Shown here piece after piece: positions 9,436 through 58,640 of a stretch of 64,000 bases of DNA. The position numbers were made by a program, and so were the translations under genes. Below the pieces are notes generated by a model. It was given only the letters and a program-made list of their open reading frames with translations, was not told the origin of the DNA and ran no database searches. Every line of letters begins with the position of its first letter. Position 1 is the stretch's first letter. Source of the stretch: Megasphaera sp. MJR8396C (lineage in GTDB: Bacteria > Bacillota > Negativicutes > Veillonellales > Megasphaeraceae); the NCBI RefSeq assembly GCF_001546855.1, contig NZ_KQ958143.1, positions 1 to 64,000 of the forward strand, written 5' to 3'.

Positions 9436-11046
9436 ATGAAACAGTCATCCCTGCTAACCCTCATCTTTGCAGCAACCTTTCTGTTTCTGGCAGTCGGTAT
9501 ATCTGCCTTGGCCGTCACCGACCCCGTCGAATCCAATTACACCCTGACGGCCCTTGAAATGGTTCAGAGCGGCGACTGGATTTCGCCGCAGATCTATGGC
9601 ATCTATTGGTACGATAAACCGATTTTTCTCTATTGGCTCCTGAGTCTGTCCTACAGTGTTTTCGGCGCCACGGACTTTGCTTCCCGCCTGCCGGCCGTCC
9701 TCTTTGGGGCCATGTCCTGCACCCTGGCCGCCTGGTTCGCCCTGCGCCAGACGCAGCGTACGGCAACGGCCGTTCTCTTTGCAGCCATGACGGCGACGTC
9801 CCTTGCCGTTTGGCTCATCAGCCGTTCGGTCATCACCGATCAGCCCTTGTTCTTCTTTAGCGGCGCCACCTTATTCTTTGCCTTTATCGGCCTTACGGAA
9901 GCCAAAAAGAACTATGTCATCGCCGCCTATGTCATGGCTGCCGGCGCCGTCCTCACCAAAGGACCGGTCGGCCTCGTCCTGCCCGGCTTATTTCTCCTCC
10001 TCTTTGCCATCATTCAGCGCAATGCCGCCTATGCCAAACGACTCTTTCCGCCGGTCGGCATCGCCTTATTCCTCCTCCTCGTCCTGAGCTGGTACGGCCC
10101 GATGTATCGCCTCCACGGTCAGGATTTCATCGATGGCTTCCTGGGATTTAATAACGTCGTCCGGGCTACGGTTTCTGAACACCCGAAAGACAACGTCTGG
10201 TACTACTATCTGGTCCTGGTTCCGGTCAGCCTCCTTCCCTGGACCGGCCCCTGCCTGTACGGCTTATGGAAACGGCGCCGTCGCGATGACACCTATGTGT
10301 TCATGGCCGTTTGGGCCATCGGGACCATTTTATTTTACAGCCTCATGGCTACGAAATACCCGACCTATGCCTACATCGCCAACTGGCCCTTACTCTATCT
10401 CGGCGCTTGGGCCATCGATTCTTTCCACCAAGAGGACCGCCATCGCCTCTGGCTCATCGTCATCATTCCGGCCCTCTTGTTCGGCCTTCTCTTTGCAGCA
10501 CTGAACTTCTTTACCAGCAAAGCGCCCTTCCCCGTCGACGGCCTGTTACTGCTGACGATCTTCATCGCCATCATGGCCTTCCTCATCTTACTGGCCTGGT
10601 GGCAAAAAGCCTATATCGCCCTGCCCATTCTCATTACGGCCATGACTGCCGTTACCTATCTCATCGTAACCTTCCAGGTGTTGATCCCCTTCTATCAATA
10701 CCGATCGGCCCAAAGCCTGACTACGGCACCCATAACGGGACAGGCCTACTTCTTTGAAGAGTATCGGACGTCTTACCCCTATTACACGGGAAAGACCGCC
10801 ATCTGGACGTCAGCCGGAAAGTCCGATAAAAATTCTACACAAAAGCGCGACGCCGTTTGGGCAAAAAAATATCTCTACCCCAAGGAAGAAGAAGCGTCCG
10901 TCATCAACCGTCTGCAAAATCATCAGGACCTGACTCTCATCGTCCCCCGCAGCCAATACCAAAATTATCTGGCCTCGAACTTTGCCCCCTTGACCCGCGA
11001 AACGGCACACGTCGGCTCCTACTATCTCTTTACGCCGGCGCCATAG
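9436..11046 (+). CDS. ArnT-like glycosyltransferase family 39 protein (second copy)
   Basis: 536 residues and clearly a paralogue of the preceding gene. It has the same order of motifs: VTDPVESNYTLTALEMVQSGDW (where the first copy has DPDEPVYGETAREML), IYWYDKPIFLYW, and ATDFASRLPAVLFG. The second acidic residue of the active-site pair is present as D-P-V-E rather than D-P-D-E, so the catalytic loop is one acidic residue poorer. The rest is a multi-helix GT-C membrane domain with a soluble C-terminal tail. SD AGGAGG lies seven bases before the ATG. The two copies may add different sugars or act on different acceptors; this is inference. Confidence 0.85.
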   Translation: MKQSSLLTLIFAATFLFLAVGISALAVTDPVESNYTLTALEMVQSGDWISPQIYGIYWYDKPIFLYWLLSLSYSVFGATDFASRLPAVLFGAMSCTLAAWFALRQTQRTATAVLFAAMTATSLAVWLISRSVITDQPLFFFSGATLFFAFIGLTEAKKNYVIAAYVMAAGAVLTKGPVGLVLPGLFLLLFAIIQRNAAYAKRLFPPVGIALFLLLVLSWYGPMYRLHGQDFIDGFLGFNNVVRATVSEHPKDNVWYYYLVLVPVSLLPWTGPCLYGLWKRRRRDDTYVFMAVWAIGTILFYSLMATKYPTYAYIANWPLLYLGAWAIDSFHQEDRHRLWLIVIIPALLFGLLFAALNFFTSKAPFPVDGLLLLTIFIAIMAFLILLAWWQKAYIALPILITAMTAVTYLIVTFQVLIPFYQYRSAQSLTTAPITGQAYFFEEYRTSYPYYTGKTAIWTSAGKSDKNSTQKRDAVWAKKYLYPKEEEASVINRLQNHQDLTLIVPRSQYQNYLASNFAPLTRETAHVGSYYLFTPAP

Positions 11047-11062
11047 CCAGAAAGGGAATATC

Positions 11063-11743
11063 ATGAAAAACCTCATCCATACACTTTGCGATTACCATGA
11101 ACCCGGCGTTTTCAATCCCTGGTCAGAATATGACGAGCAGTGCGACATCGGCCCGGCAGCGCCGGATATCCGCTGCCGTCAGCTCCGGGATTATCTGGAA
11201 CCTCGCCTGCATCGTGCCCGCATTTTGCTCATTGCCGAAGCCGCCGGTTACCAGGGATGCCGCTTTACGGGCATTCCCATCACCTGCGAACGGATGCTCC
11301 TCGATGCGCATAAACAGATCTCGTCATCGATCATCCTCGGCCGGCAGGGAGAACGGACGAGCCGCCCCGACTGCACTTTCATGACCAGCCGCCCCCAACA
11401 GGACAAGGGGATGAACGAACCGACTGACACCTATGTTTGGGGCGCCATCGTCGATAACGGCCTCGATCCAAAGGACGTCCTGCTGTGGAACATTTTCCCC
11501 TTCCACCCTCATAAAAAATCGCCCTTTTCCAACCGCACGCCGAGTGATGCCGAACTGGCTGCCGGCCTTTCTTATGCCAAAGCCCTGCTCCATCTCTGCC
11601 GGCCGGACATCCGCGTCGCCGCCATTGGCCGAAAATCGGCAGAAACCCTAGAAGCCGCCGGTATTTCGGCTCAGTCCATGCGTCACCCGGCCAACGGCGG
11701 AGCTTCCTTGTTCAGGAAACAATTTTCACGTTTTTCTCTTTAA
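11063..11743 (+). CDS. Uracil-DNA glycosylase superfamily protein
   Basis: 226 residues. ILLIAEAAGYQGCRFTGIPITCERML (from about 52) corresponds to the uracil-recognition loop of the superfamily, and NIFPFHPH and MRHPANGG near the C-terminus correspond to the strand-3 and His-Pro (HPS) motifs. Related proteins remove uracil from DNA, but this subgroup is divergent (A-E-A-x-G-Y in place of G-E-A-P-G) and its activity is uncertain. SD AAAGGGA sits seven bases before the ATG. It directly follows the glycosyltransferase operon by 16 bases and may be co-transcribed. The window holds a second, different member of the superfamily at 23683-24258. After the stop, 11744-11820 is AT-rich and shows no terminator hairpin. 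Confidence 0.82.
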   Translation: MKNLIHTLCDYHEPGVFNPWSEYDEQCDIGPAAPDIRCRQLRDYLEPRLHRARILLIAEAAGYQGCRFTGIPITCERMLLDAHKQISSSIILGRQGERTSRPDCTFMTSRPQQDKGMNEPTDTYVWGAIVDNGLDPKDVLLWNIFPFHPHKKSPFSNRTPSDAELAAGLSYAKALLHLCRPDIRVAAIGRKSAETLEAAGISAQSMRHPANGGASLFRKQFSRFSL

Positions 11744-11820
11744 TTCTTTTTAAAATAACAATAAATTCGTTTTACACATTAAAATTATCGGTATTTTTGT
11801 TCATATATTCAAAAAAGTCA

Positions 11821-11849
11821 TTGCATCGTCCTTACAAATCGTCTATAAT
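11821..11849 (+). promoter_or_regulatory. gltB promoter
   Basis: TTGCAT and a perfect TATAAT separated by 17 bases; predicted transcription start near 11856. Confidence 0.7.
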
Positions 11850-11870
11850 CATAGATGCACCACAGTATCC

Positions 11871-21439: not shown

Positions 21440-21459
21440 TGTAACGGGAGGTGATCTCC

Positions 21460-22086
21460 ATGAAAAAAATCGTCCTTCTGCTCCTCTTCTTCCTGCTCTC
21501 AGCCATCGCCGTCAGCGCTGACAGTGTTCGCTTCGACAACATGCGCACCGTCGTCATCGCTGATACGACGCAGGACAATTACGCGGCCCGATATATGAAA
21601 CGAGCCCTGGTACAGCCTTTCCGCATCCCCTATTGGAACCGCATCGACACCCCGGCTATCTTATCTCCGTCGGACGTGACCGAAGAAAACCTGCGAAGGC
21701 TGGCCTCGCAGTATAAGGCCGATGTCGTCCTGGTTCCAGTCGTCCAGACCTGGTACTGGCGCCAGTTCATGAGCGGCTACCGCCTTCGCGCCGACAGTGA
21801 AATGTATACCGAATACCGCTATCGCCTGACGGTCTACGCCTACGACAAGCGGACCGACCGGATGAGCAGCTATTCCGACAGCGGCCGCGACATCGAATCG
21901 ACGTCGATTTTAAACAATCCTGACGACGTCCTCTATCCGGCCATGGCCCGCATCTTACAGAAGCTCCCGTATAAACGAATCCCGACTGATATCGAAACGA
22001 CGAGCAGCACCATTCCGGGCCTGCAGACAAAAACGACGGACGGCGGCGCTAAAATCCTGACCAATACCTTCCCCCAGTCCATTTAA
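21460..22086 (+). CDS. Secreted protein of unknown function
   Basis: 208 residues. A clear signal peptide (MKKIVLLLLFFLLSAIAVSA, cleavage probably after SA) directs it across the inner membrane; with no lipobox cysteine it should be periplasmic. The mature part has no family that I recognise. It shows KADVVLVPVVQTWYWRQ, a Tyr/Arg-rich middle and TEYRYRLTVYAYDKRTDR, which suggests a beta-rich fold like outer-membrane-associated binding proteins. GGGAGGTGA is six bases before the ATG; a GTG at 21451 overlaps that SD and is rejected. It follows the radical SAM gene closely and ends at a strong terminator. Confidence 0.75.
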   Translation: MKKIVLLLLFFLLSAIAVSADSVRFDNMRTVVIADTTQDNYAARYMKRALVQPFRIPYWNRIDTPAILSPSDVTEENLRRLASQYKADVVLVPVVQTWYWRQFMSGYRLRADSEMYTEYRYRLTVYAYDKRTDRMSSYSDSGRDIESTSILNNPDDVLYPAMARILQKLPYKRIPTDIETTSSTIPGLQTKTTDGGAKILTNTFPQSI

Positions 22087-22199: not shown

Positions 22200-23204
22200 T
22201 TAGTGATTGCCCGGAACCATATCGACGACAGCTTGAGCCTGAAGTTTCGCTTCGCTGTTTTTCTTTTCGCGAGCTTCCATATGACGAGCAAAGACACCGG
22301 CTAAGATGGATCCCGTTACCTGATGGACAAGGGCTCCGACGGCAGCCGGAATCGCGACTGCCGGGGCAAAGAATACCGATACCAGGGAAATAGCCAGGGC
22401 ATCGTTCTGCATCCCAACTTCAAGGGTAACCGAATGCTGCTGCTTTTTTCCAAGTCCGAGCAGACCCGTAACGACATATCCCAGGAGGAAACCACCGAGG
22501 TTGTGAAGGAGGACCATGACGATGACGAAGACACCCATATCCAGAATCTTAGCCCCGTTGACGGCAATGACACCGCCGAGGATAACTAAAACGCCAAAGG
22601 CGGAAACGAGGACCAAGATCTTCGACAGAGAGACGACGTGTTTTTCTCCCATGAGTCGATGTGCTAAGAGGCCCAAAACCAGAGGAACCAAGATGACTTT
22701 CATAACCGTCATGGCCATGGCCGTAAAGGATACTTCAACCCACTGTCCGGCCAAGCCCCAGACGATAAAGGGCATCATGATCGGCGCCAAGAGTGTCGAG
22801 CAGGTTGTAATCGAAACCGACAAGGGAACGTCGGCCTTTGCTAAGAAGCCCATGACATTCGACGCCGTACCACTCGGGCAGGAACCGAGGAGAATCATGC
22901 CGACGGCCATTTCCGGCGGCATTTCAAAAGCCAGGACCAGACCATAGGCCAGGAGAGGCATGATGGTGTAATGAGCGGCACAGCCGACGAGAACTTCCTT
23001 CGGCCGCTGGACGACCAATTTAAAGTCGCTGGCGTGAAGCGTCATGCCCATACCGAACATGATGATTCCCAACAAGAGAACCGTATGAGGCACGGCCCAT
23101 AAAAAGGCGTCCGGCATGAAATAAGCTGCCACCACGACGACGAGGACGATGTACGTCAAATTCTTTCCCACAAAACCGCTTAACTTTCCGATGAAATCCA
23201 TCAT
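22200..23204 (-). CDS. BASS family sodium-dependent organic anion symporter
   Basis: 334 residues with nine to ten membrane helices. The family core is visible: GIIMFGMGMTL (helix 2), GSCPSGTASNVMGFLAKADVPLSVSITTCSTLLAPIM (discontinuous helix 4 with sodium-site residues), and LEVGMQNDALAISL (second crossover helix). BASS proteins carry bile acids, 2-oxo acids, pantoate or thiohydantoins with sodium across the inner membrane. The start at 23204 has AAGGATG nine bases upstream; the longer frame to 23291 runs into the T-box terminator and is not real. A T-box with a probable Met codon precedes it, so the cargo is likely a methionine-related compound such as a 2-oxo or hydroxy acid analogue. That is an inference from regulation. 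Confidence 0.92.
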   Translation of the reverse strand: MMDFIGKLSGFVGKNLTYIVLVVVVAAYFMPDAFLWAVPHTVLLLGIIMFGMGMTLHASDFKLVVQRPKEVLVGCAAHYTIMPLLAYGLVLAFEMPPEMAVGMILLGSCPSGTASNVMGFLAKADVPLSVSITTCSTLLAPIMMPFIVWGLAGQWVEVSFTAMAMTVMKVILVPLVLGLLAHRLMGEKHVVSLSKILVLVSAFGVLVILGGVIAVNGAKILDMGVFVIVMVLLHNLGGFLLGYVVTGLLGLGKKQQHSVTLEVGMQNDALAISLVSVFFAPAVAIPAAVGALVHQVTGSILAGVFARHMEAREKKNSEAKLQAQAVVDMVPGNH

Positions 23205-23270
23205 AGTAAGGCACATCCTTTCAAATCTCACTGAATAATATACAAATACGCAAACGGTTTTGATGGAGCA

Positions 23271-23552
23271 AAAAAAGGCTTTGCCTCTCATAAAGAGACA
23301 AAGCCTTCACTCTGCGGTACCACTCTTATTGTCATAACGACCACTTTTCCAGCATCTCCGGGGTTCCCCTTCTAATGCCTGGCTGGATAACGGTTGCCTG
23401 CCGGCTGCGTCTACTAGCAAATCTGCGTTCGGGCAGCAGCTCCTGGATGATGTTTCATGTCGATTGGCCATCCTGCCTCTCAGCTTTCAGCAGGTCTCTG
23501 TCATGGCGTCCCTGACACTACTTTTTCCATTCAACACTGTTCTGTATTTGTT
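23271..23552 (-). promoter_or_regulatory. T-box riboswitch, probable Met (ATG) specifier, ahead of the BASS gene
   Basis: On the minus strand the leader has a stem I region with AGAGA and GCTGAAAGC motifs (about 23480-23500), then a candidate specifier ATG located six bases before CATCC, then the conserved T-box AGAGTGGTACCGCAG (about 23310-23325), then a terminator stem AAGGCTTTGTCTCT/AGAGGCAAAGCCTT with a T run (23273-23308). The T-box TGGT can pair with a tRNA ending ACCA, which fits tRNA-Met. The specifier position matches that of the ilv T-box in this window, where the codon is ATT. Uncharged tRNA would stabilise the antiterminator and switch the transporter on. Together with its promoter this accounts for the 478-base gap. 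Confidence 0.87.
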
Positions 23553-23558
23553 GTTGTA

Positions 23559-23587
23559 ATTATACAGCCCTTCTCGCCAGTCGTCAA
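23559..23587 (-). promoter_or_regulatory. Promoter of the Met T-box leader
   Basis: On the minus strand TTGACG and TATAAT are separated by 17 bases. Confidence 0.7.
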
Positions 23588-25102: not shown

Positions 25103-26116
25103 CTACTTATGAGCAGTCGACAAAGAAGTCCTTGCCGACGGACTTTCTACCCCTTCGTATTCGCTGTCAAAGCGCTTGTTCAGATAATTGACATAGAGAT
25201 AGGCAAGCCCCGCTCCAGAAATATTGTGCCAAGCGCTGAAAATGGCACCGGGGACGCCGGCCATGGGAAGGGCTGCAAAATGAGTTTTGGCAAGGCCCGT
25301 AGCAAGGCCCGAATTCTGCATACCAACTTCAATGGATACAGCAACCATCTTCTTCCAGCTCATGCCGCAGAGGTGGCCGATAAAGAAGCCCAAGGCGTAG
25401 CCCAGGCAGTTATGCAAGATGACGACTAACAAGATGAGGCCGGAACTGTTGAGGATAGAATCGCGGCTGGCACCGATGATGCCGGCAATGAGGAAGGAAA
25501 TGGCCATGGCCGATACAGCCGGCAGGTAATCGAGCGCCCCTTGAGCCAGTTTCGGAAGGAAGCGTTTGACCAAGAGCCCCAAGGCAATGGGGACGATGAC
25601 GATCTGTACGATGGATAAGAACATGCTGACCGGATTGAAGGAAATGCGCTGACCGATGATGAGGTACGTCAAAAGGGGCGTCATAATCGGCGACAAGAGG
25701 GTCGAAATACTGGTAATCGTGACCGACAAGGGAACGTCGCCCTTACTCATGAAGGTGATGACATTGGACGACGTGCCGCCAGGGCAGGTCCCGACCAAGA
25801 CGACGCCGACGGTCAGAGCCGGATCCAGGCGAAATACCGTCGACAGGAGGAAAGCCAGAAAAGGCATGACAAAATACTGGGCGCAGACGCCGAAAAAGAC
25901 GTCCTTAGGCTGTTTCAAAACGAGGACAAAGTCATGGGCACTCATGGTCATACCCATGCCAAACATGATGATGCCCAAGAGGACCGATAAGACGGAAATA
26001 CCGCCGACGTTTCCTAAGACCCAAGAAAAACTCGTCGGCATCGTAAGACCGATGATGAGAAAGATGATGGCGATGACGCCAAAAAATTTACCGATGAGAG
26101 CACAAACCTGTTTCAT
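25103..26116 (-). CDS. BASS family sodium-dependent organic anion symporter (second copy)
   Basis: 337 residues with the same architecture as the protein at 22200-23204: GIIMFGMGMTMSAHDF, GTCPGGTSSNVITFMSKGDVPLSVTITSISTLLSPIMTP, and IEVGMQNSGLATGLAKTHF. It carries an organic anion with sodium into the cell. Unlike the first copy there is no T-box; it lies just after the ilvD terminator and may be expressed by read-through from the ilv operon, which would fit a branched-chain 2-oxo acid or pantoate precursor as cargo (inference). The C-terminal 25 residues are hydrophilic and rich in Ser. SD AGAGG is visible before the ATG. Confidence 0.92.
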   Translation of the reverse strand: MKQVCALIGKFFGVIAIIFLIIGLTMPTSFSWVLGNVGGISVLSVLLGIIMFGMGMTMSAHDFVLVLKQPKDVFFGVCAQYFVMPFLAFLLSTVFRLDPALTVGVVLVGTCPGGTSSNVITFMSKGDVPLSVTITSISTLLSPIMTPLLTYLIIGQRISFNPVSMFLSIVQIVIVPIALGLLVKRFLPKLAQGALDYLPAVSAMAISFLIAGIIGASRDSILNSSGLILLVVILHNCLGYALGFFIGHLCGMSWKKMVAVSIEVGMQNSGLATGLAKTHFAALPMAGVPGAIFSAWHNISGAGLAYLYVNYLNKRFDSEYEGVESPSARTSLSTAHK

Positions 26117-26219: not shown

Positions 26220-27872
26220 TTATTGCATGACGGCGCCGGTATTGGCCGACGTAACTAATTTGGCGTACCGTGACAGGTAGCCCGTCTTGACCTTTGGTTC
26301 CGGCTGCTTCCATGCCGCCCGGCGCTTCTTCAATTCTTCATCGCTGACTTTTAATTCCAGTTTACGATTCGGAATGTCGATGGAGATGGTATCACCGTCG
26401 TGGACTAAGGCCAGTGGCCCGCCTTCCATGGCTTCCGGTGAAATATGGCCGATGCAGGCCCCGCGGCTGGCACCGCTGAAGCGGCCGTCGGTCAGAAGGG
26501 CGACTTTTAGTCCCATGCCAGTGATAACCGCCGTCGGATTGAGCATTTCACGCATGCCCGGTCCGCCTTTCGGTCCTTCATAGCGGATAACGACGACGTG
26601 CCCTTCTTTAATATCGCCGCGGATAATCGCTTCGATGGCATCTTCTTCGGCATCGTAGCACTTGGCCGTCCCTTCATAGACCAATAGGTCTTCGTCGACA
26701 GCGCTTTCCTTGATGACCGAGCCGAGGGGCGCTAAATTTCCTTTAAGGACGGCGATACCGCCTTTATTCATATAGGCATTATCGACGGAATGGATGACAT
26801 CCCGATTGAGGACTTCTGCATCTTTGATGCGGTCGCCGACGGTGCCGGTAATGGTCTTTGCTTCCGGATGGATGAGGCCCAACTTGGAGACTTCCTTCAT
26901 GACGGCACAGATGCCGCCGGCTTCATCGAGGTCCTGCATATGATAGGTCCCGCCGGGGCTCATCTTGCAGATATAAGCAGCCTTGCGGCTGATGGCATCG
27001 AATTCATCGAGGGACAGTTCTACTCCCGCTTCATGAGCAATGGCCGGCAGGTGCAGGGCCGTATTGGTCGAACCGCCGATAGCCATATCGACGGCAATGG
27101 CATTTTCAAAGGCTTCGAGGGTCATGATATCCCGCGGCTTTACGTCGCGGCGAACGAGGTCCAGGACGACTTCGCCGGCTTTTTTCGCCAACATGCGGCG
27201 AAGTCCCGTATAGGCAGCCGGAATCGTGCCGTTGCCGGGAAGGCCCATGCCTAAGACTTCAGTCATGCAGTTCATGGTATTGGCCGTAAATAAGCCGGAA
27301 CAGGAGCCGCAGCCCGGGCAGGCATGAAATTCCATTTCGTGCATTTCATCAGCCGTCATCTGGCCCGATTCGACCTTACCGGCCGCTTCGAACATCGTGC
27401 TGACGCTGATGTTCCGTCCCTTATAGCGTCCGGCCAACATCGGTCCGCCGCTGACAACGACGGTCGGGATGTTCAGTCTGCCAGCGGCCATGAGCATGGC
27501 CGGCACGATTTTATCGCAGTTTGGGATGAGGACCAAGCCGTCGAAGGCGTGGGCCGTCGCCACGGCTTCAATGGAGTCGCAAATCAATTCGCGACTCGAA
27601 AGGGAAAAACTCATGCCCCGATGGCCCATGGCAATGCCGTCACAGACGCCGATAGACGGGAATTCGATGGGCGTACCGCCGGCAGAAGCTACGCCGAGTT
27701 TGACGGCCTGGGCAATTTCACCTAAGTGAACATGCCCCGGAATAATTTCATTAAAGGCGTTGCAGATGCCGATTAAAGGCTTCTTCAAATCTTCATCGCT
27801 ATAGCCCATGGCATGGAACAAACTCCGATGGGCCGTTCGGGTAACCCCTTTTTTTACAACATCACTGCGCAT
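26220..27872 (-). CDS. ilvD: Dihydroxy-acid dehydratase
   Basis: 550 residues. It dehydrates 2,3-dihydroxy-isovalerate and 2,3-dihydroxy-3-methylvalerate to the 2-oxo acids of valine and isoleucine. Iron-sulfur ligands are visible in [19 protein letters not shown] and [28 protein letters not shown] and the C-terminal [20 protein letters not shown] complete the IlvD/Edd signature. The Mg-binding lysine lies in the DLKKPL/NCDK region. I place the start at the ATG coding MRSDVVKKG, which has GAGG nine bases upstream and matches the family N-terminus; an ATG three codons earlier (27881) abuts the SD. It is the last gene of the ilvC-ilvB-ilvN-ilvD operon. Confidence 0.97.
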
Positions 27873-27918
27873 AGTATCCATCCTCTCTTCCTGCCGTATT
27901 GGCTTCGGCAGCTATCTA

Positions 27919-28422
27919 TTACATATCCTTCACGGCAGGTTCCCCTCGAGAGAGAGAAATCTGGCCCGTCCGGGCAATTTCAATGATTTCATAGTCTTTC
28001 AACATTTCAAGCAGGGCCTCGATGCGGTCTTCTCGGCCTGTAATGCGCATAGTCAGCGAATTTCGCTGGACGTCGACGATCTTAGCCTTGAATAAATTTG
28101 CGATATTGGTCAACTCTTCCCGGATTTCGGGTGTCAGACTCCGGATCTTGATCATGGCCAGTTCGTAACTGACAAAGGGGGCATCATCAAGGTTTACGAC
28201 CTTGATGACGTCGATGAGTTTTGCCAGTTGATTGACGGCTTGATCGAGTTCCCATCGATTTTCGACGGAAACGACGATATTGATGCGGGTCACATCGGAT
28301 TCTTCCGTGTACCCGGCGTTAATGCATTCGATATTGATGGCTCTGCGGCTGATGAGGCCGGCAACGTGGGTCAAAACGCCGGGCTTATTGTCACAGAGCA
28401 GAGCCAGGTGTTGTCTTGTCAC
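27919..28422 (-). CDS. ilvN: Acetolactate synthase small subunit (GTG start)
   Basis: 167 residues, the regulatory partner of the large subunit. The N-terminal ACT domain (about 1-80) reads LALLCDNKPGVLTHVAGLISRRAINIECI, the binding fold for the feedback inhibitor valine. The second domain (about 85-160) includes the MRITGREDRIEALLEML segment. The start is GTG and it overlaps the ilvB stop (GTGA), so translation is coupled and the subunits are made together. ilvD follows after 46 bases. Confidence 0.95.
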   Translation of the reverse strand: MTRQHLALLCDNKPGVLTHVAGLISRRAINIECINAGYTEESDVTRINIVVSVENRWELDQAVNQLAKLIDVIKVVNLDDAPFVSYELAMIKIRSLTPEIREELTNIANLFKAKIVDVQRNSLTMRITGREDRIEALLEMLKDYEIIEIARTGQISLSRGEPAVKDM

Positions 28423-30116
28423 TCGGCTACACCTCCCAGTACCATTTGGTCCAATCGTTTTCCTCCGGGAACCATAGGATAGACATTTTCATCAGGTGGA
28501 ATGAATACATCAAGTAGAGCCGGTCCTTCGGTATGGAACAACCAGGCTACGGCATCATCCAGTTTTTCCGGATTGCGGACAGAAAGTCCGGGAACTCCCA
28601 TCGCCCCAGAAAGGGCTGTCAAATCAGGATTGTCGGAAATGACCGACTGCGAACAGTGGCCGCTGTAAAACATGCGCTGCCACTGATTGACCATCCCGAG
28701 GACGTTATTGTGGAGAACGACGACCTTGACGTCGACGCCGTACTTATGAAGGGTAGCAAATTCCTGACAGTTCATCATGATGCTGCCGTCGCCGGTAAAG
28801 AGGACGACCGTAGATTGAGGACAGCCTATTTTCGCTCCCATGGCCGCCGGAAGGCCGTAGCCCATGGTTCCCAAGCCGCCGGAGGTAATGAAGTGCCGCG
28901 GTTTGTTCAAGTTGAAGAACTGTGCCGACCACATTTGATGCTGGCCGACGTCGGTAACGACGACGGTGTCATCATCGGTCACAGCCTGAAGGGCTTCAAA
29001 AAGTGACTGTGGAGAAATGGTTCCCTCTAAATGACGGGTTGCAAAGGGATGCACTGCCTTCATATCCAAAACGGAGTGCCGCCAATCCTCATATCTTTCA
29101 TAGAGTGCCTGTCCATCGAATTTCAATCCCTCACAGAGGTGCGGCAGAGACCAGCGAAGATCGGCGTTGACACTGATATCGGCATGGACGATTTTATTGA
29201 TTTCAACCTTGTCGATGTCGAAGTGAACGATTTTCGCCTGGGGCGCAAAGTTGGCAGCGTCACCGGTAACGCGATCATCAAAACGAGCGCCGACGGCCAG
29301 GAGCAGGTCACACTGGGTAACGGCCATATTGGCAGCATAGGAACCGTGCATGCCGACCATGCCCAAGTGGCAGTCCCATTGGTCGGGAATGCTGCCCTTC
29401 CCCATGAGCGTCGTGACGACCGGTACACCCAGCTGTTGTACAATGGAACGCAGCGTGTCCGCCATTCCCGATAAGACGACACCACCGCCGGTAAGGAGTA
29501 CCGGCCGCTTGGCCTTAGCCAAGGCCTGAACAGCACGGGCTACATCGTCTTCGCAGCCTTCGGGATTGCCCTTGTAACCTCTGAGGTGGACCTCCTCCGG
29601 GTATTCAAAGTCAAAGGACGTATCGAATACATCTTTGGCAATGTCAACCAGGACCGGTCCCGGCCGACCTGTGGACGCAATGTAGAAGGCTTCTTTTAAA
29701 ACCCGCGGCAGTTCTTTCGCGTCCTTTACGAGATAGTTGTGCTTCGTAATCGGCGTCGTAATGCCGGAAATATCGGCCTCTTGAAAGGAGTCGCGGCCAA
29801 TGAGCGGCGTCGCTACCTGACCGCTGATGATAACCAAGGGAATAGAATCCATGTTGGCCGTTGCAATGCCCGTGACCATGTTGCAGACCCCAGGCCCTGA
29901 GGTCGCAAAGCATACGCCGGGCCGCCCGGTCACTCGAGCATAACCGTCGGCAGCGTGAACAGCACCCTGTTCGTGTCCCGTCAAAATATGAGGGAACTGC
30001 GCTTTATACACTTCGTCGTATAGGCTTAGGACGGCCCCGCCGGGATAGCCGAATACGACGTCTACACCTTCTCGCTTTAAGCATTCAAGGACAGCTTGTG
30101 CGCCGGTCATGTTCAT
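28419..30116 (-). CDS. ilvB: Acetolactate synthase large subunit
   Basis: 565 residues of the thiamine-diphosphate enzyme family. It condenses pyruvate with pyruvate or 2-oxobutyrate as the first common step to valine, leucine and isoleucine. Landmarks are FGYPGGAVLSLYDE with the catalytic Glu in HEQGAVHAADGYAR, GPGVCNMVTGIATA, the FAD-domain GRPGPVLVDI, and the ThDP motif GDGSIMMNCQEFAT...NN. SD GAGGTGA is five bases before the ATG at 30116; the frame also includes a GTG nine bases upstream that is part of the SD. It follows ilvC after 55 bases in the same operon. Confidence 0.97.
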   Translation of the reverse strand: MNMTGAQAVLECLKREGVDVVFGYPGGAVLSLYDEVYKAQFPHILTGHEQGAVHAADGYARVTGRPGVCFATSGPGVCNMVTGIATANMDSIPLVIISGQVATPLIGRDSFQEADISGITTPITKHNYLVKDAKELPRVLKEAFYIASTGRPGPVLVDIAKDVFDTSFDFEYPEEVHLRGYKGNPEGCEDDVARAVQALAKAKRPVLLTGGGVVLSGMADTLRSIVQQLGVPVVTTLMGKGSIPDQWDCHLGMVGMHGSYAANMAVTQCDLLLAVGARFDDRVTGDAANFAPQAKIVHFDIDKVEINKIVHADISVNADLRWSLPHLCEGLKFDGQALYERYEDWRHSVLDMKAVHPFATRHLEGTISPQSLFEALQAVTDDDTVVVTDVGQHQMWSAQFFNLNKPRHFITSGGLGTMGYGLPAAMGAKIGCPQSTVVLFTGDGSIMMNCQEFATLHKYGVDVKVVVLHNNVLGMVNQWQRMFYSGHCSQSVISDNPDLTALSGAMGVPGLSVRNPEKLDDAVAWLFHTEGPALLDVFIPPDENVYPMVPGGKRLDQMVLGGVAE

Positions 30117-30171
30117 TCTATTCACCTCGTTATCATGGTATAAAGATCATGGCCTATGGGCCATGGAGACA

Positions 30172-31560
<1,389 letters not shown>

Positions 31561-35037: not shown

Positions 35038-36333
35038 CTACAACGGAATTGCACCAATAATAACCGCAACGAATAAAATCACCAGGGATACTAACCAAGC
35101 CCAAAAGAAAGTATGCTTCTGATGCTCACCAAAATCCACACCAGCTAATCCTACCAGTAAAAAAGTAGACGGAGTTAATGGAGAAATAGGAAAGCCTAAC
35201 GTCATTTGACCAGAAATTGCCGCTCTACCTAAATCAACACCGGCTAAACCTACTGCATTTGCCGCTTGAGCTAATACTGGTAATACAGCAAAGTAAAAGC
35301 TGTCCGGGTCAAATAGCAAGCTTGCCGGCATCGAGATAATGCCAATAATAACCGCAAAATGTGCTGCCAGTGCTTCTGGAATAATAGAAACTAGCCCTTG
35401 AGCCATAGCATTCAACATCCCTGCACCTTTCATAATGCCAGTGAAAATACCTGCTGCAAACAATACACTTGCCATCATCAATGCTGATTTAGCGTGACTA
35501 TCAATTAACTCACTTTGAACTTTAATACTGGGATAATTAACAGTTAATGCAATAACCAATGCCACCATAAAACATCCTGCAGGTGGAAAAGTACCTTTTA
35601 CCAACAACGCAATAGTAGCAACAATCAACAATAAGTTAAACCAAAAAAGTTTAGGCCGACGTAGTGCAGCCTCCTCCTCAGAAAGCGGTGCTGGTTCCAA
35701 GCTAATATTAGTCAACAAATTCCCTAAACGACGTTTTTCTTTCATGCCAAACATAATAGAAATTGCAACCCCAGCCAGTATCCCAAAGATTTGAGGAATA
35801 ATCATCGGAGAAAATAAATCCATAACAGGAATATCTAGTGCTGTCGCAGCTCGAATCGTAGGTCCTCCCCAAGGGACAATATTCATAGTACCAGCACCCA
35901 GTGCAACAATTGTCGCTAAAATCTTTCGATCCATTTTTAACTTGTTATAAATCGGCAACATGGCCGGAACCGTAATCAAAAATGTACTCGCCCCAGAACC
36001 ATCTAAATGGGTTAAAAGTGTAATAACGTAAGTACCAATACAAATCTTTATAGGGTTAGAACCAACAATGCTTAAAATTTTATTTACAATGCGTTCGAAA
36101 ACACCTGTATCTCCCATAATGGTAAAGAAAAGTACTGCAAAAATGAACATAGCACCTGTAGGCGCTACACTTTTAATCCCCGCCATCATAAATTTTCCCA
36201 TTTCGCCGCCTAATCCTAAAACTAAACAAGCGATAATTGGTACTGCAATCAACGCACACATTGTCGATAATTTTTTAGTTAATATACTAATCAGTACCAA
36301 TAGGACCGTAACTAAACCCACAATAGCTAACAT
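35038..36333 (-). CDS. CitMHS family organic acid transporter
   Basis: 431 residues, eleven to twelve membrane helices. GLVTVLLVLISILTKKLS, FFTIMGDTGVFERIV (near 70), THLDGSGASTFLITVPAMLPIYNKLKM (near 107), GTMNIVPWGGPTIRAATAL and the late FDPDSFYFAVLPVL match CitMHS (metal-citrate/proton or sodium symport) proteins. Its cargo here is probably the organic acid handled by the neighbouring CaiB and AtuA-type genes, not necessarily citrate. SD AAGGAGG is ideal. It is the last gene of the sigma-54-controlled unit. Base composition is visibly AT-richer than the window average, as in the rest of this module. Confidence 0.9.
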   Translation of the reverse strand: MLAIVGLVTVLLVLISILTKKLSTMCALIAVPIIACLVLGLGGEMGKFMMAGIKSVAPTGAMFIFAVLFFTIMGDTGVFERIVNKILSIVGSNPIKICIGTYVITLLTHLDGSGASTFLITVPAMLPIYNKLKMDRKILATIVALGAGTMNIVPWGGPTIRAATALDIPVMDLFSPMIIPQIFGILAGVAISIMFGMKEKRRLGNLLTNISLEPAPLSEEEAALRRPKLFWFNLLLIVATIALLVKGTFPPAGCFMVALVIALTVNYPSIKVQSELIDSHAKSALMMASVLFAAGIFTGIMKGAGMLNAMAQGLVSIIPEALAAHFAVIIGIISMPASLLFDPDSFYFAVLPVLAQAANAVGLAGVDLGRAAISGQMTLGFPISPLTPSTFLLVGLAGVDFGEHQKHTFFWAWLVSLVILFVAVIIGAIPL

Positions 36334-36404
36334 AGTAAACCTCCTTATCCCGATTCGTCCGACCTCGTTTTTTAAGAGGTCGGGAATCGTGGTAATACAG
36401 CCTA

Positions 36405-37592
36405 TTAGTCAGTAGTTTTCTTCATGAAGTACGAAATATCCTCATCAGAAAGATGTAGCAGATTGCTAAGAACATCCCCAGTATCTTTCCCCAGTGTCGG
36501 AGCTTTGGCATACGTATAAGAGTCTGCTTCCGTCATCTTAACGGGGTTACCGGTGACTCTCATTTTACCTTCAATCGGATGATCAATTTCACAAATCATC
36601 TGGCGTGCTTTGGCAATGTGTTCATCATTTACGACATCGGCCACGTCATGGATTGGCGCACAAGGGACACTATGAGCCCGCAATAACTCAATAATTTCTA
36701 CTGCTGGATGCTGTCTCGTCCACTCCGTAACCATCGTATTCAATCTATCTTTTTGTTTTGCCCGATCCTTATTCAGGGCAAGACTTTCATCGGCTAACCA
36801 ATCTTCATGTCCAATGGCCTTGCAAAAACGGTTCCAAATAGCATCATTGCCCACACCGATGACAATCCATTTATCAGAAGCTTCAAAGGAATCGTATGGA
36901 TATATAAATTCATAACGGTTACCAGCACGCTGCGGGATTCTATCTTCGACCATGTAGATTTCAGTAATCGTTTCCATAGCGCTGACCGAGCAGTCAACAA
37001 GTCCGATATCGACGTACTCACCATGATGTTGTGTATTCCGACCTTGCAGGGCCGCTAAAATACCGATGCAGCAATTAAGGCCGCCCAATACGTCGCCAAT
37101 AGCCGTCCCAGTCCGAGTTGGAGGCGAGTCAGGCCACCCGGTAACGCTCATCATACCGCTCAAGGCCTGGGCAATGACATCATAGCCAGGAAGCAGTCGA
37201 TAGGGCCCGGTCTGGCCAAAGCCGGAAATAGAAGCAAATACGATATTAGGGTTTAACTTCTTTACTTCTTCATAAGAAAAGCCCATTTTGGCAATCGTGC
37301 CAGGTTTAAAATTCTCGACAAAAACATCGGAAATTTTGATGAGTTCGCGAAGTACATCCTTTGCTTTTTCATCATGCAGATCCAGGCAAAGACTTTTTTT
37401 ATTGCGATTTAAATTGGCATAATAGGCACTGATTCCCTTAGAAAATGGCGGATAGGCACGGCTATCATCACCTCTGGGTGATTCAATCTTAATAACTTCA
37501 GCCCCCATATCGGCCAAGAGCATCGTGCAATACGGTCCAGACAGGACTCGCGTCAAATCAAGGACACGAATTCCTTGTAACGGTTTTGACAT
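36405..37592 (-). CDS. CaiB/BaiF family CoA-transferase
   Basis: 395 residues, a class III CoA-transferase. VLDLTRVLSGPYCTMLLADMGAEVIKIE at the start, NLNRNKKSLCLDL, DVFVENFKPGTIAKMGF, ISGFGQTGPY, PGYDVIAQALSGMMSVTG and YVDIGLVDCSVSAM are the family blocks; the last contains the catalytic Asp (near residue 170) that forms the acyl-enzyme anhydride. It would load CoA onto a carboxylic acid using another acyl-CoA as donor. Next to the transporter and AtuA-type genes it is the likely activation step of the pathway. It starts 13 bases after the preceding small gene, with SD TAGGAGG. Confidence 0.94.
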   Translation of the reverse strand: MSKPLQGIRVLDLTRVLSGPYCTMLLADMGAEVIKIESPRGDDSRAYPPFSKGISAYYANLNRNKKSLCLDLHDEKAKDVLRELIKISDVFVENFKPGTIAKMGFSYEEVKKLNPNIVFASISGFGQTGPYRLLPGYDVIAQALSGMMSVTGWPDSPPTRTGTAIGDVLGGLNCCIGILAALQGRNTQHHGEYVDIGLVDCSVSAMETITEIYMVEDRIPQRAGNRYEFIYPYDSFEASDKWIVIGVGNDAIWNRFCKAIGHEDWLADESLALNKDRAKQKDRLNTMVTEWTRQHPAVEIIELLRAHSVPCAPIHDVADVVNDEHIAKARQMICEIDHPIEGKMRVTGNPVKMTEADSYTYAKAPTLGKDTGDVLSNLLHLSDEDISYFMKKTTD

Positions 37593-37604
37593 AATGACAG
37601 CCTC

Positions 37605-37925
37605 CTATTCATCATCCACTTCAATATACATCCGCAGGAGGGCTGCTTCCATGCATTTCCCCAGCGTATCCAGGCGCAGTGACCGCGTAGCTCCACCATC
37701 AAGAGCATGATGCATGACGAAGTTAAAGCCGTCTAACTGAGGCACGTCATAACGAGTAACGTCACCAAAAACTAAGCCTTCAAAATGGCGGCGAACATTT
37801 TCCGGCGTCAACTGCGCTTCCATAAATTTATAATATTTAGGTTCTCTTGCATAGATACAAATATTAGACGTATCGCTTTTATCTCCGCAACGACCGTGTG
37901 CAATGTCTTTTAACTGTACTTTCAT
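37605..37925 (-). CDS. AtuA-related small protein (DUF4387-type)
   Basis: 106 residues. MKVQLKDIAHGRCGDKSDTSNICIYA and the C-terminal HALDGGATRSLRLDTLGKCMEAALLRM match the small proteins that accompany or are fused to AtuA/DUF1446 proteins. AtuA itself is required for acyclic terpene use in Pseudomonas, but the biochemical step of either part is not firmly known. Here the two are separate neighbouring genes: the start at 37925 is four bases past the AtuA-type stop, with SD GAGGAGG inside the end of that gene, so they should form a 1:1 complex. Confidence 0.85.
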   Translation of the reverse strand: MKVQLKDIAHGRCGDKSDTSNICIYAREPKYYKFMEAQLTPENVRRHFEGLVFGDVTRYDVPQLDGFNFVMHHALDGGATRSLRLDTLGKCMEAALLRMYIEVDDE

Positions 37926-37929
37926 GATG

Positions 37930-39288
37930 TTATACCTCCTCAACGTATGTCGTAAGCTTGATGGCATCTCTCGGAATCAAGGTTGGCCAGAGAGCAAAGA
38001 CTTCGCTCGGACGACTGCGGCCACCGAAGAAGCATCCCTGTGCCGGACCATTCAGATTACTTACAGCCGCTACTTCCGGCGTCAGTTTCAAGCCTTCCTG
38101 CTTATTTTCAGTCATAATGGCATAACGAAGGACAACTTCATTGAGATCAGCATTAAGTTCCGGTGCCAACGGACCATGAAGCGCATTTACCCCAAGATAA
38201 CTGATATGTTTACGAACAATATGAGCATTTTTCATCGCCAATCGCTTATCGAGAATATCAGCCGCCATCTTCGCTTTATCTAAAGCTCGCGGCCAAGAAT
38301 AAGGCAAATAAGCAATCGTGCGATACCCTTCAAGATAACCTACACACAACTTTAACGTATCCGGAGCTGGTGTCCCCGTAACACCGCGAACGGCCACGTG
38401 ATCTCGTTCAATTTCTTCTAACGTAATTTTGCTGAAATCAGCCACCGTATCGGGCGTAATATATTTTGAAGGATCGTGAATTTCATAAAGCAATTGTTCT
38501 TTAACCGACTGAGGCGTGACGAGACCGCCGGTATTCTTTGTTTTCGTCAGTATGAGGCTGCCTTTTTCACTGACTTCGACGATCGGATAGCCGAGATTTT
38601 CCGGACTGGGAACATGTTCCCAATCATAATCATAGTTACCGCCAGTTGCCTGGGCGCCGCATTCACAAAGGTGACCTGCTAAAATCCCCGTTGCCTTGGC
38701 GGTCCAGTCATCCGATTTCCAGCCAAATTCATACATGAGCGGAGCTTCAAACATAGCCGTATCGGTCGATCTGCCCAAAATAATGATATCGGCACCGTCT
38801 TCCAAGCATTTAACAATAGGTTCTACACCATAATAAACATTGGCATTGACCATATTCGGTAAGATGCGGTCAATATCTTCTCCGGTGTCCATATGCTTCA
38901 TCGTGATTCCTTTTTCTCTGAGCTGAGGAATCATTTCACGCACATCATCACCGAGAACATACCCTACTTTTAAGTTGTATCCGCCGTCGCGAATGACTTC
39001 TTTCGCCTTTTCAACGCAGGCTTTGACGTTCATACCACCGGCATTGGTGATGACTTTCGTGCCCTTCTGCGTGATATAGGGCAGCATCCCTTTTAATGCC
39101 GTAATAAAATCTCGTGCATAACCTGCTTCAGGGCGCTTTTCCTGTTGCCTTCTCATGATAGATAAGGTCAATTCTGCCAAATAATCGCAGCAGATATAAT
39201 CTAAATTATCCTCTCTGGCCATCGTAATGGGGGCATCACTTAAGTCGCCCCAAAAGCCTTGTCCGCCACCGATTCGAATTGTTTTCAT
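37930..39288 (-). CDS. AtuA/DUF1446 family acyl-CoA pathway protein
   Basis: 452 residues. IRIGGGQGFWGDLSDAP, DYICCDYLAELTLSIM (near 30), TNAGGMNVKACVEKA (near 82), ADIIILGRSTDTAMFEAPLMYEFGW and GHLCECGAQATGGNYDYDW (near 210) are the conserved DUF1446 blocks; no cofactor motif is plain. The family is linked to catabolism of branched acyl chains and unusual hydroxy acids. It is the first gene of the unit and starts 60 bases after a likely sigma-54 start site. SD GAGGTAAA. With CaiB and CitMHS it forms a compact uptake-activate-degrade module. Confidence 0.92.
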   Translation of the reverse strand: MKTIRIGGGQGFWGDLSDAPITMAREDNLDYICCDYLAELTLSIMRRQQEKRPEAGYARDFITALKGMLPYITQKGTKVITNAGGMNVKACVEKAKEVIRDGGYNLKVGYVLGDDVREMIPQLREKGITMKHMDTGEDIDRILPNMVNANVYYGVEPIVKCLEDGADIIILGRSTDTAMFEAPLMYEFGWKSDDWTAKATGILAGHLCECGAQATGGNYDYDWEHVPSPENLGYPIVEVSEKGSLILTKTKNTGGLVTPQSVKEQLLYEIHDPSKYITPDTVADFSKITLEEIERDHVAVRGVTGTPAPDTLKLCVGYLEGYRTIAYLPYSWPRALDKAKMAADILDKRLAMKNAHIVRKHISYLGVNALHGPLAPELNADLNEVVLRYAIMTENKQEGLKLTPEVAAVSNLNGPAQGCFFGGRSRPSEVFALWPTLIPRDAIKLTTYVEEV

Positions 39289-39355
39289 ACGGATTTACCT
39301 CTTTTCTTTGTATTGTATACATATAGTATCGTAATATTACTAACACGACTCTATA

Positions 39356-39374
39356 TATGAAATTTTTATGCCAA
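39356..39374 (-). promoter_or_regulatory. Candidate sigma-54 (-24/-12) promoter of the AtuA operon
   Basis: On the minus strand TTGGCATAAAAATTTCAT matches TGGCAC-N5-TTGCA at nine of eleven positions; the GG and the -12 pair are exactly ten bases apart. It sits about 70 bases before the first gene and about 150-200 bases downstream of the tandem repeats and the activator gene. Confidence 0.65.
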
Positions 39375-39469
39375 GAAATAAAAAAGCGAGGAGAACCATG
39401 ATATTCCGTTCTTGAAAAACGAGTAGCCATCCCATTTATCTTCCATAATTAAAATTTTACTGGCAAAAT

Positions 39470-39517
39470 AATACGGCCCATTTAGGCACACAGTTGTATA
39501 CCTAAATAGGCCGTATT
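39470..39517 (-). terminator. Long hairpin after the activator gene
   Basis: AATACGGCC-ATTTAGG pairs with CCTAAAT-GGCCGTATT (one mismatch), followed on the minus strand by ATTTTGCC. Probably the terminator of the enhancer-binding protein gene, separating it from the operon. Confidence 0.65.
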
Positions 39518-39567
39518 GTTTACATAATATACAAATCACTATGTTCATTTTGTTTACATAGTATACA
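39516..39567. promoter_or_regulatory. Tandem repeats, probable upstream activator sites
   Basis: TTGTTTACATAATATACA (39516-39533) and TTGTTTACATAGTATACA (39550-39567) differ at one of 18 positions and are 34 bp apart, about three helical turns. They lie 170-220 bp upstream of the candidate sigma-54 start site, the usual distance for enhancer-binding protein sites. Confidence 0.65.
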
Positions 39568-39569
39568 CT

Positions 39570-40985
39570 TTATTTTTCTTCATCAAGCCCATATTGTTTC
39601 CACTTCTTGTAGAAAGTCCGCCGGCTAATCCCCAAGGCCTTCATGGCTTTCGTTTTATTTCCATTGGCCTCTGATATTGCCTGCTGAATCCGTTTCTTTT
39701 CCATCATCTGAAGTCCTGATTTCAAGGAATAATCGCAACCAGCTTCAAACTCATCCGCATCAAAATAAGAAGTTGTGCTTACTTGATTGTCATGCTGCAG
39801 CAAGTCGTCTGGTAAATGCTCTAATTGAATGATCCCTTCATTGCAAACAATGACAGCATATTCCATACAGCTCTGTAATTGACGAACGTTACCGTTCCAA
39901 GGGAATGTTAAAAAATACTGTTTCACTTCGGGCGAGATTGTAACTTTTTTCCCATACTTTCGCGCATATTTCTCTAAAAAGAAATCAGCTAACAAAAGGA
40001 CGTCTTCACCACGTTCCCGCAACGGAGGAATAGTTATTTTAAAGGTGTTTAAGCGAAAATATAAGTCATCGCGGAATTTACCTTCTCGGACCATTTGCTT
40101 CAAATCGCGATTCGTAGCAGCGATCACCCGAACATCCGCCTTTTGAACTACTTGTGAGCCTATTTTTTGGATTTCTCCGGACTGCAGTACTCTCAACAGT
40201 TTTGACTGCATAAAGAGGGGCATCTCCCCGATTTCATCTAAAAAAATCGTACCACCATCAGCTTGTTCAAACTTTCCGCTCTTGCCGCCCTTGACGGCTC
40301 CGGTAAAAGAACCGGACGTGTAACCGAAAAGTTCACTTTCCATTAAAGATTCTGGAATGGCCGAACAATTTAAATTGACATAAGGCTGCTTTCTTTTTCC
40401 GCTGATTGCTAGTATGGCGTTGACGAAAACTTCTTTCCCTGCCCCACTCTCCCCTTCAATGAGAACGGTTGCATCTGTCGGTGCCACTAGTTCAGCCAGC
40501 CGCAAGCATCGCAAAAAGTTAGGATTCTGTCCAATGATATGAGAAAATTCAGCATGAAACGCGCGGTCTGCAGCCGCTTTAAAGATCGATTGATTGAGTC
40601 GTTGTGCCTTTTCCAACTCTTCCTGGCTCCGAGACAGTTCCGTAATGTCATTGAATACCGATACGGCGCCTAGAAGTGTACCGTCTTTCATGATCGGTGT
40701 AATATTGACTCGTATTTTTTTGCCCCTCGTCTTTACTTCTACTAATTGCTGAAGAACTGGCTCTTTATTCTGAAGAACCTGCAAAATAAGGGCCCCTGGT
40801 TCAATCGTTTTTACTTGCTTATGAAGGACTTTATCTTTTGATACAGCAAGAATTTTCGTATACGCCTTATTTACATAGAGGATACGGGAGGTTTTATCGA
40901 CAATAACGATCCCATCATTAACCGCATCCATGGCCTCCCACATCATCACACTGGCAATAGCATCGTTTTCTGCCAGTACACCCAT
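39570..40985 (-). CDS. Sigma-54-dependent transcriptional activator (PAS-AAA-Fis)
   Basis: 471 residues. Residues 10-125 form a PAS sensor (DGIVIVDKTSRILYVNKAY). Residues 145-385 are the AAA domain with Walker A GESGAGKE (178-185), the sigma-54 contact loop GSFTGA (225-230, a GAFTGA variant with Ser) and Walker B GGTIFLDE (244-251). The C-terminal Fis-type helix-turn-helix is KTKAMKALGISRRTFYKKWKQYG. It should bind the tandem repeats just downstream of its gene and activate the AtuA/CaiB/CitMHS operon from the -24/-12 site when the PAS domain senses the substrate or its CoA ester. Its own promoter is sigma-A type. Base composition is AT-rich like the operon, so regulator and operon likely moved together. 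Confidence 0.95.
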   Translation of the reverse strand: MGVLAENDAIASVMMWEAMDAVNDGIVIVDKTSRILYVNKAYTKILAVSKDKVLHKQVKTIEPGALILQVLQNKEPVLQQLVEVKTRGKKIRVNITPIMKDGTLLGAVSVFNDITELSRSQEELEKAQRLNQSIFKAAADRAFHAEFSHIIGQNPNFLRCLRLAELVAPTDATVLIEGESGAGKEVFVNAILAISGKRKQPYVNLNCSAIPESLMESELFGYTSGSFTGAVKGGKSGKFEQADGGTIFLDEIGEMPLFMQSKLLRVLQSGEIQKIGSQVVQKADVRVIAATNRDLKQMVREGKFRDDLYFRLNTFKITIPPLRERGEDVLLLADFFLEKYARKYGKKVTISPEVKQYFLTFPWNGNVRQLQSCMEYAVIVCNEGIIQLEHLPDDLLQHDNQVSTTSYFDADEFEAGCDYSLKSGLQMMEKKRIQQAISEANGNKTKAMKALGISRRTFYKKWKQYGLDEEK

Positions 40986-58543: not shown

Positions 58544-58640
58544 GGGAAAGGACGGGTTCTGGTGTTCCCTCTGGTCTTCAAAACCAGCGTGAGGGGTGAA
58601 TAGCTTCTCAGGTGGGTTCGATTCCCACGCTTTCCCGCCA
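58544..58640 (+). tRNA. selC: tRNA-Sec (UCA anticodon)
   Basis: A 97-nt tRNA with all hallmarks of tRNA-Sec: anticodon TCA at 58578-58580 in the loop CTTCAAA closed by CTGGT/ACCAG, a long variable arm with a 7-bp stem (TGAGGGG/CTTCTCA), T arm GTGGG-TTCGATT-CCCAC, and an acceptor GGGAAAG/CTTTCCC ending G-CCA that is encoded. TATAAT at 58527-58532 and a terminator at 58695 bracket it as a single unit. It reads UGA as selenocysteine, so the genome should encode selA, selB, selD and at least one selenoprotein; none is in this window. The rest of the 315-base gap (58433-58747) holds the dehydrogenase promoter and the selC terminator. Confidence 0.97.

Follow-up and report, generated by a model that had tools for sequence, protein, structure and literature searches.

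An isoleucine-type T-box upstream of a BASS-family transporter in Megasphaera suggests tRNA-controlled uptake of branched-chain 2-oxo or 2-hydroxy acids

Introduction

Which amino acid is sensed by a T-box that stands before a transporter of the bile acid:Na+ symporter (BASS) family, and what might such a transporter carry? The question is raised by a 64-kb stretch of DNA from Megasphaera sp. MJR8396C (64,000 nucleotides, hereafter the window), in which a T-box leader precedes a gene of this kind, here termed BASS1. The substrates of bacterial BASS proteins are mostly unsettled, and T-box specifiers have been used before for assigning substrates to unknown carriers. The T-box transporter list of Wels 2008 comprises seven families (MFS, APC, NSS, DAACS, LIVCS, NhaC and ABC), with BASS not amongst them (PMC2494555). 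Full-text literature searches for a T-box or riboswitch together with a bile acid symporter returned nothing relevant, although the reviews by Vitreschak 2008 and Gutierrez-Preciado 2009 may mention BASS; the novelty of the pairing rests on the Wels list and on these searches.

Architecture of the locus

Read 5′ to 3′ on the minus strand, the locus comprises a promoter, the T-box leader, an intrinsic terminator and BASS1. The predicted sigma-70 promoter (23559..23587) is near-consensus, with TTGACG (23587-23582) and TATAAT (23564-23559) separated by a 17 nt spacer and 11 of 12 positions matching. The full-length leader RNA (23291..23543) is confirmed as a real T-box, far above chance, by a match to Rfam RF00230 that runs from 23543 to 23291 and covers model positions 1-219 end to end, scoring 104.9 bits (E=4.1e-22) against a curated gathering score of 93 bits. 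It resembles Ile-class T-boxes, such as those of ileS and ilv leaders, in that stems I, II, IIA/B and III and the antiterminator all align and in its AUC, UGGU and terminator; it is unlike them in having a BASS transporter gene as its target. Its specifier loop, GAAACAUCA, is also 1 base longer than the usual Ile form, GAAAAUCA.

The intrinsic terminator (23271..23308, minus strand) consists of a 16-pair hairpin (23308-23274) followed by U's, with a strong predicted fold (-26.4 kcal/mol, z=-5.7); it lies upstream of the gene and is mutually exclusive with the antiterminator. The coding sequence starts 87 bases past the end of the leader. In the Rfam alignment the T-box bulge UGGU falls at 23319..23322 (minus strand), where it would pair with the ACCA-3′ end of a tRNA with discriminator A73, and the tRNA-Ile(GAU) genes of the genome do end in ACCA. 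Minimum-energy free folding of stem I does not recover the T-box fold, as is expected for an RNA stabilised by tRNA.

Downstream, BASS1 (22200..23204, minus strand) encodes a protein of 334 aa that matches the SBF family, PF01758, with 138.8 bits against a cut-off of 24.3 (E=2.2e-40). The full-length Rfam match and this Pfam match bear out the view of the first-pass annotation that a well-formed T-box precedes a sodium/organic anion symporter. On the opposite strand, at 21451-22086 of the window, lies a conserved hypothetical gene (211 aa, no Pfam or NCBIfam match), close to which a radical SAM gene is found in several Megasphaera relatives.

The specifier codon

Below the specifier loop, stem I has a helix in which UGGA (5′ strand, 23526..23529) is paired with UCCA (3′ strand, 23444..23447), both on the minus strand. 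The TBDB rule numbers the loop from its 3′ end and places the specifier at positions 2-4; 99% of Ile specifiers are AUC (PMC7778990). The position of the helix, taken with this rule, points to AUC (23449..23451, minus strand) as the specifier, followed by the purine A at 23448, and the Rfam alignment agrees. This isoleucine specifier is well supported by alignment and loop register, and the leaders of ileS and ilvC in this genome have the same codon in register.

For calibration, the register was applied to the 19 T-boxes that this genome contains, 13 of which lie before genes whose amino acid is known (ilvC, leuA, cysE/K, thrS, trpS, metY, ileS, cysS, valS, serC, trpE, pheS and glyQ). The standard register gives the cognate codon in all 13, the leuA specifier, like some of those in the orthologs below, having been read from alignments and leader sequences rather than by automatic script. 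The helix below the loop varies in sequence from leader to leader, with its pairing kept (in full in most, 3 of 4 pairs in metY and valS), which lends support to the register.

The first-pass annotation had read the specifier as ATG, for methionine, six bases before CATCC, and had taken ATT to stand at the same spacing in the ilv T-box. That position falls within the side of the loop that holds the conserved GAA: in the Rfam alignment the ATG (23456..23458, minus strand) runs into the conserved (U)GAA, and the specifier of the ilv T-box is AUC. The RF00230 alignment, which the annotation had itself proposed as the check on its specifier, places another codon there, AUC, and at the level of the alignment the methionine reading is refuted. 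Plant BASS5 carries 2-keto acids derived from methionine. A Met T-box with a carrier of methionine-related oxo or hydroxy acids could draw on this, on the chain-elongated 2-keto acids carried by plant BASS proteins (PMC10645422) and on the placement of the ATG 11 bases ahead of the 3′ strand of the helix. Its frame, however, yields the cognate codon in only one of the 13 control T-boxes (ilvC, by chance, as read from the loop strings). The ATG is unconserved, orthologs showing GTG, TTG, AGG and GCG at its site and none having a Met specifier, and the genuine Met T-box of this genome, with AUG in register, stands elsewhere, before the O-acetylhomoserine sulfhydrylase gene metY (locus L010). A methionine system at BASS1 is accordingly regarded as extremely improbable.

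Since A73 is common to tRNA-Ile, tRNA-Val, tRNA-Leu and tRNA-Met of the genome, UGGU fits all four and cannot separate them. The neighbouring frames are rejected for the following reasons: UCA (frame +1, Ser) because tRNA-Ser has G73 and the Ser T-box of the genome carries UGGC as opposed to UGGU, and CAU (frame -1, His) because tRNA-His has C73. Taken as a whole, regulation of BASS1 by an Ile T-box is well supported, as judged from alignment and register.

The BASS1 protein

The closest solved structure to BASS1 is ASBT_NM (E=3.5e-74), from which its fold is clear. ASBT_NM residues Thr112, Ala113, Ser114, Asn115, Glu260, Gln264, Asn265 and His294 are all kept. Also conserved are Ser114, Asn115, Ser128, Thr132, Glu260, Met263 and Gln264, the sodium-site residues compared, residue 77 being His and not Gln. 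BASS1 thus shares the fold family of PanS, ASBT_NM and plant BASS1, BASS2 and BASS5, together with Thr112, Ser114, Asn115, Glu260, Gln264 and Asn265, and differs from them in and around the pantoate site, where it has His77, Asp266, Ala267 and Gln295. It also differs in its predicted regulation by branched-chain tRNA. In ASBT_NM, the main-chain nitrogen of residue 267 touches pantoate (PMC10645422). His77 and Ala267 are found in most proteins of the T-box-linked clade, and likewise in most of the ilvD-linked clostridial clade and of the ilvD-linked sporolactobacillar proteins, whereas ASBT_NM and a BASS protein encoded beside panC have Gln77 and Gly267.

These comparisons bear on whether BASS1 might itself carry pantoate or ketopantoate, being regulated as it is because coenzyme A synthesis shares 2-oxoisovalerate with the branched-chain pathway. 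PanS is amongst its best NCBIfam relatives and ASBT_NM binds pantoate, but the score of 223 bits against NF047939 falls below the equivalog cut-off of 400. The third BASS gene of the genome, which adjoins panC (pantoate-beta-alanine ligase; G000:C19, locus L020), is more PanS-like at 298 bits, differs from BASS1 at pocket positions 77, 266, 267 and 295, and is itself likely, on sequence and position, to encode the pantoate/ketopantoate carrier, to which this role would then apparently belong. Charging of tRNA-Leu or tRNA-Ile would, moreover, be a poor signal of pantothenate need. A pantoate role for BASS1 is therefore considered improbable.

Conservation and switching of the specifier

A T-box stands at the same place in 15 of 15 close relatives (GTDB contigs). 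Of 381 Negativicutes genomes sampled, 23 carry the gene at an ortholog cut-off of E<=1e-90, with 27 copies between them, every one of which has a T-box upstream. Their specifiers are AUC in 18 cases, GUC (Val) in eight and CUC (Leu) in one, with AUG in none, so that N-U-C is kept and the first base alone varies.

In a protein tree of 65 BASS proteins, the T-box-linked genes form one supported clade, within which three specifier changes suffice. The Ile specifier is found in the deep branches, which include Phascolarctobacterium and Acidaminococcus, one Megasphaera branch has Val, and Leu occurs in M. cerevisiae. BASS1 of the window and its two nearest relatives lie inside the Val branch with high support, yet have the Ile specifier. 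Read from the tree, this gives a putative history in which Ile was ancestral, was switched to Val and was then regained in a tandem copy ancestral to the gene of the window. Such tandem copies are found in M. massiliensis NP3 and Megasphaera sp. UBA1696 (L023:5972-6224 and 9664-9914; L024:9669-9914 and 11613-11863), where a separate T-box precedes each of the two, with AUC before one and GUC before the other. M. cerevisiae combines an Ile with a Leu copy, and Marseille-P2974 combines an Ile with a Val copy. The window has a single BASS copy at the place where relatives carry the tandem pair, and no second close copy of BASS1 was found in the genome. Collapse of two tandem copies into a single one in the draft assembly was considered and appears unlikely, as comparison with both M. 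massiliensis copies revealed no clear chimera.

Switching amongst branched-chain amino acids is likewise seen in LIVCS (BrnQ) carriers, a single carrier family found under Ile, Leu or Val T-boxes, where it has been interpreted as the placing of one multi-specific carrier under several individual amino acid signals (Wels 2008, PMC2494555). BASS1 differs in belonging to another family, that of the organic anion carriers. The specifiers of its relatives, all Ile, Val or Leu, suggest a carrier for branched-chain precursor acids.

Branched-chain genes around BASS genes

The minus strand of the window carries, in series, a T-box, ilvC, ilvB, ilvN, ilvD, a second BASS gene (BASS2), a DUF554 gene, a uracil-DNA glycosylase gene, and then the T-box and BASS1. 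The T-box of the ilv cluster (31272..31512) is of Ile type (AUC), as assigned by RF00230 and loop register, and is followed by ilvC (30172..31182), ilvB (28419..30125), ilvN (27919..28422) and ilvD (26220..27881), with ilvC read from sequence and syntenic in relatives. BASS2 (25103..26116) lies directly downstream of ilvD and keeps this position in the three nearest Megasphaera relatives. Elsewhere in the window are a selenocysteine tRNA gene (58544-58636, plus strand; RF01852, 71 bits) and, at 35038-40985 on the minus strand, what appear by reading to be genes for a transporter, a CaiB-type CoA-transferase, a small protein, a DUF1446-like protein and a sigma-54-dependent regulator.

Beyond this genome, BASS genes are associated with branched-chain amino acid genes: ilv genes lie near 17 of 80 BASS1-like loci. 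In Clostridium luticellarii and a relative the order is ilvC-ilvD-BASS-ilvB-ilvN, two further Clostridium have ilvD-BASS, and Sporolactobacillus has ilvD-BASS(-BASS). These linkages represent few independent lineages, with three context changes on the tree.

The occurrence of BASS genes within ilv clusters would also fit a BASS1 that, under the same Ile regulation, carries pyruvate or 2-oxobutyrate to feed acetolactate synthase, and plant BASS2 carries pyruvate (PMC10645422). Pyruvate is, however, an internal metabolite that is rarely limiting, and the split of paralogs between Ile and Val control within one genome (L023, L024) is harder to reconcile with one common substrate. Such a feedstock is quite unlikely as the cargo of BASS1.

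Proposed mechanism and substrate

It is probable, in our assessment, that a tRNA-Ile T-box controls BASS1 and that this carrier, coupled to Na+, imports branched-chain 2-oxo or 2-hydroxy acids, a reading in which we infer the tRNA response of the leader, the direction of transport and the exact substrate. When isoleucine is short, the anticodon of uncharged tRNA-Ile(GAU) would pair with the AUC specifier and its ACCA end with UGGU, such that the antiterminator would form instead of the terminator and BASS1 would be transcribed from its own promoter. The carrier would then import, with sodium, 2-oxo or 2-hydroxy acids whose carbon skeletons are those of Ile, Val and Leu, and a transaminase would convert these acids to the missing amino acid. 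The first-pass annotation had proposed uptake of a methionine-related organic anion; the notion that the cargo shares its carbon skeleton with the amino acid sensed was a sensible guess that carries over to this scheme, whilst methionine does not.

Regulation and gene neighbourhood together make branched-chain 2-oxo or 2-hydroxy acids the most likely substrate. Speaking for the branched-chain link are the Ile, Val or Leu specifiers of all 27 orthologs, the BASS2 paralog that closes the ilv cluster, the ilv genes near other BASS1-like loci, and the His77 and Ala267 that most T-box-linked proteins have in common with most ilvD-linked clostridial ones. Plant BASS proteins are also able to carry 2-keto acids, namely pyruvate and chain-elongated forms (PMC10645422). 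In a C. glutamicum strain that overproduces 2-ketoisocaproate, expression of two BASS genes rises, with a candidate role in transport (PMC4353348). Several points count against the proposal. ASBT_NM bound pantoate and not ketopantoate (PMC10645422), which would favour 2-hydroxy over 2-oxo acids, pantoate being a close likeness of branched 2-hydroxy acids. BASS2, though part of the ilv cluster, retains PanS-like residues. The genome has three BrnQ-type carriers, by which amino acid uptake itself is already covered. The ilv pathway and an IlvA-like dehydratase are present, but an IlvE of the usual fold was not found, the sole Aminotran_4 match in the genome being, as read from sequence, a PabC-like protein encoded beside PabB (G000:C52, locus L136:1399-2148), so that the transamination step would call for a different kind of enzyme.

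Under the same Ile regulation, BASS1 could instead take up branched short-chain fatty acids (isobutyrate, 2-methylbutyrate, isovalerate) for reductive carboxylation to 2-oxo acids. The gut niche is rich in such acids, and switching amongst Ile, Val and Leu is compatible with their uptake. In the ASBT_NM structure, however, both the 2-hydroxyl and the carboxylate are recognised (PMC10645422), and simple fatty acids have no 2-oxygen, which leaves this substrate unlikely.

Other T-boxes of the genome

Several further T-boxes of the genome stand before or near genes for transport or membrane proteins. An Ile (AUC) T-box (G000:C2:47174-47416, minus strand, L004) stands before an MFS carrier related to those for galactonate and 4-hydroxyphenylacetate (TIGR00893, 255 bits, below cut-off), so that the Ile regulon holds a second carrier of organic-anion type. 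A Leu (CUC) T-box (G000:C30:1416-1658, minus strand, L008) stands before the gene of a membrane protein that matches nothing in Pfam or NCBIfam, a candidate branched-chain carrier of an undescribed family. A Phe (UUC) T-box (G000:C24:29052-29261, plus strand, L001) precedes a sodium:solute symporter (SSF, PF00474), also a family absent from the Wels 2008 list. A Cys (UGC) T-box (G000:C55:20442-20656, minus strand, L011) is followed by a UroD/MtaA-like methyltransferase homologue and then an ABC-type solute-binding protein, and a Trp (UGG) T-box (G000:C2:41795-42049, plus strand, L012) by ECF-type transporter genes, with a SAM riboswitch on the opposite strand (L012:1218-1312).

Implications

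With regard to the wider family, substrates for a clade of bacterial BASS proteins are predicted from three features in combination: the specifier, its switching between Ile, Val and Leu, and the proximity to ilvD. A plausible extension, held tentatively, is that the Negativicutes clade as a whole serves Na+-coupled uptake of branched-chain 2-oxo or 2-hydroxy acids, that single-base specifier changes place it under Ile, Val or Leu tRNA control, and that tandem paralogs divide Ile and Val between them. The tandem Ile/Val copies amount to a natural experiment in the retuning of a specifier. If the proposal for BASS1 is right, gut anaerobes would scavenge branched 2-oxo or 2-hydroxy acids under tRNA control, and the clade, if the extension holds, would provide the first tRNA-controlled carrier for the carbon skeletons of amino acids, as opposed to the amino acids themselves.
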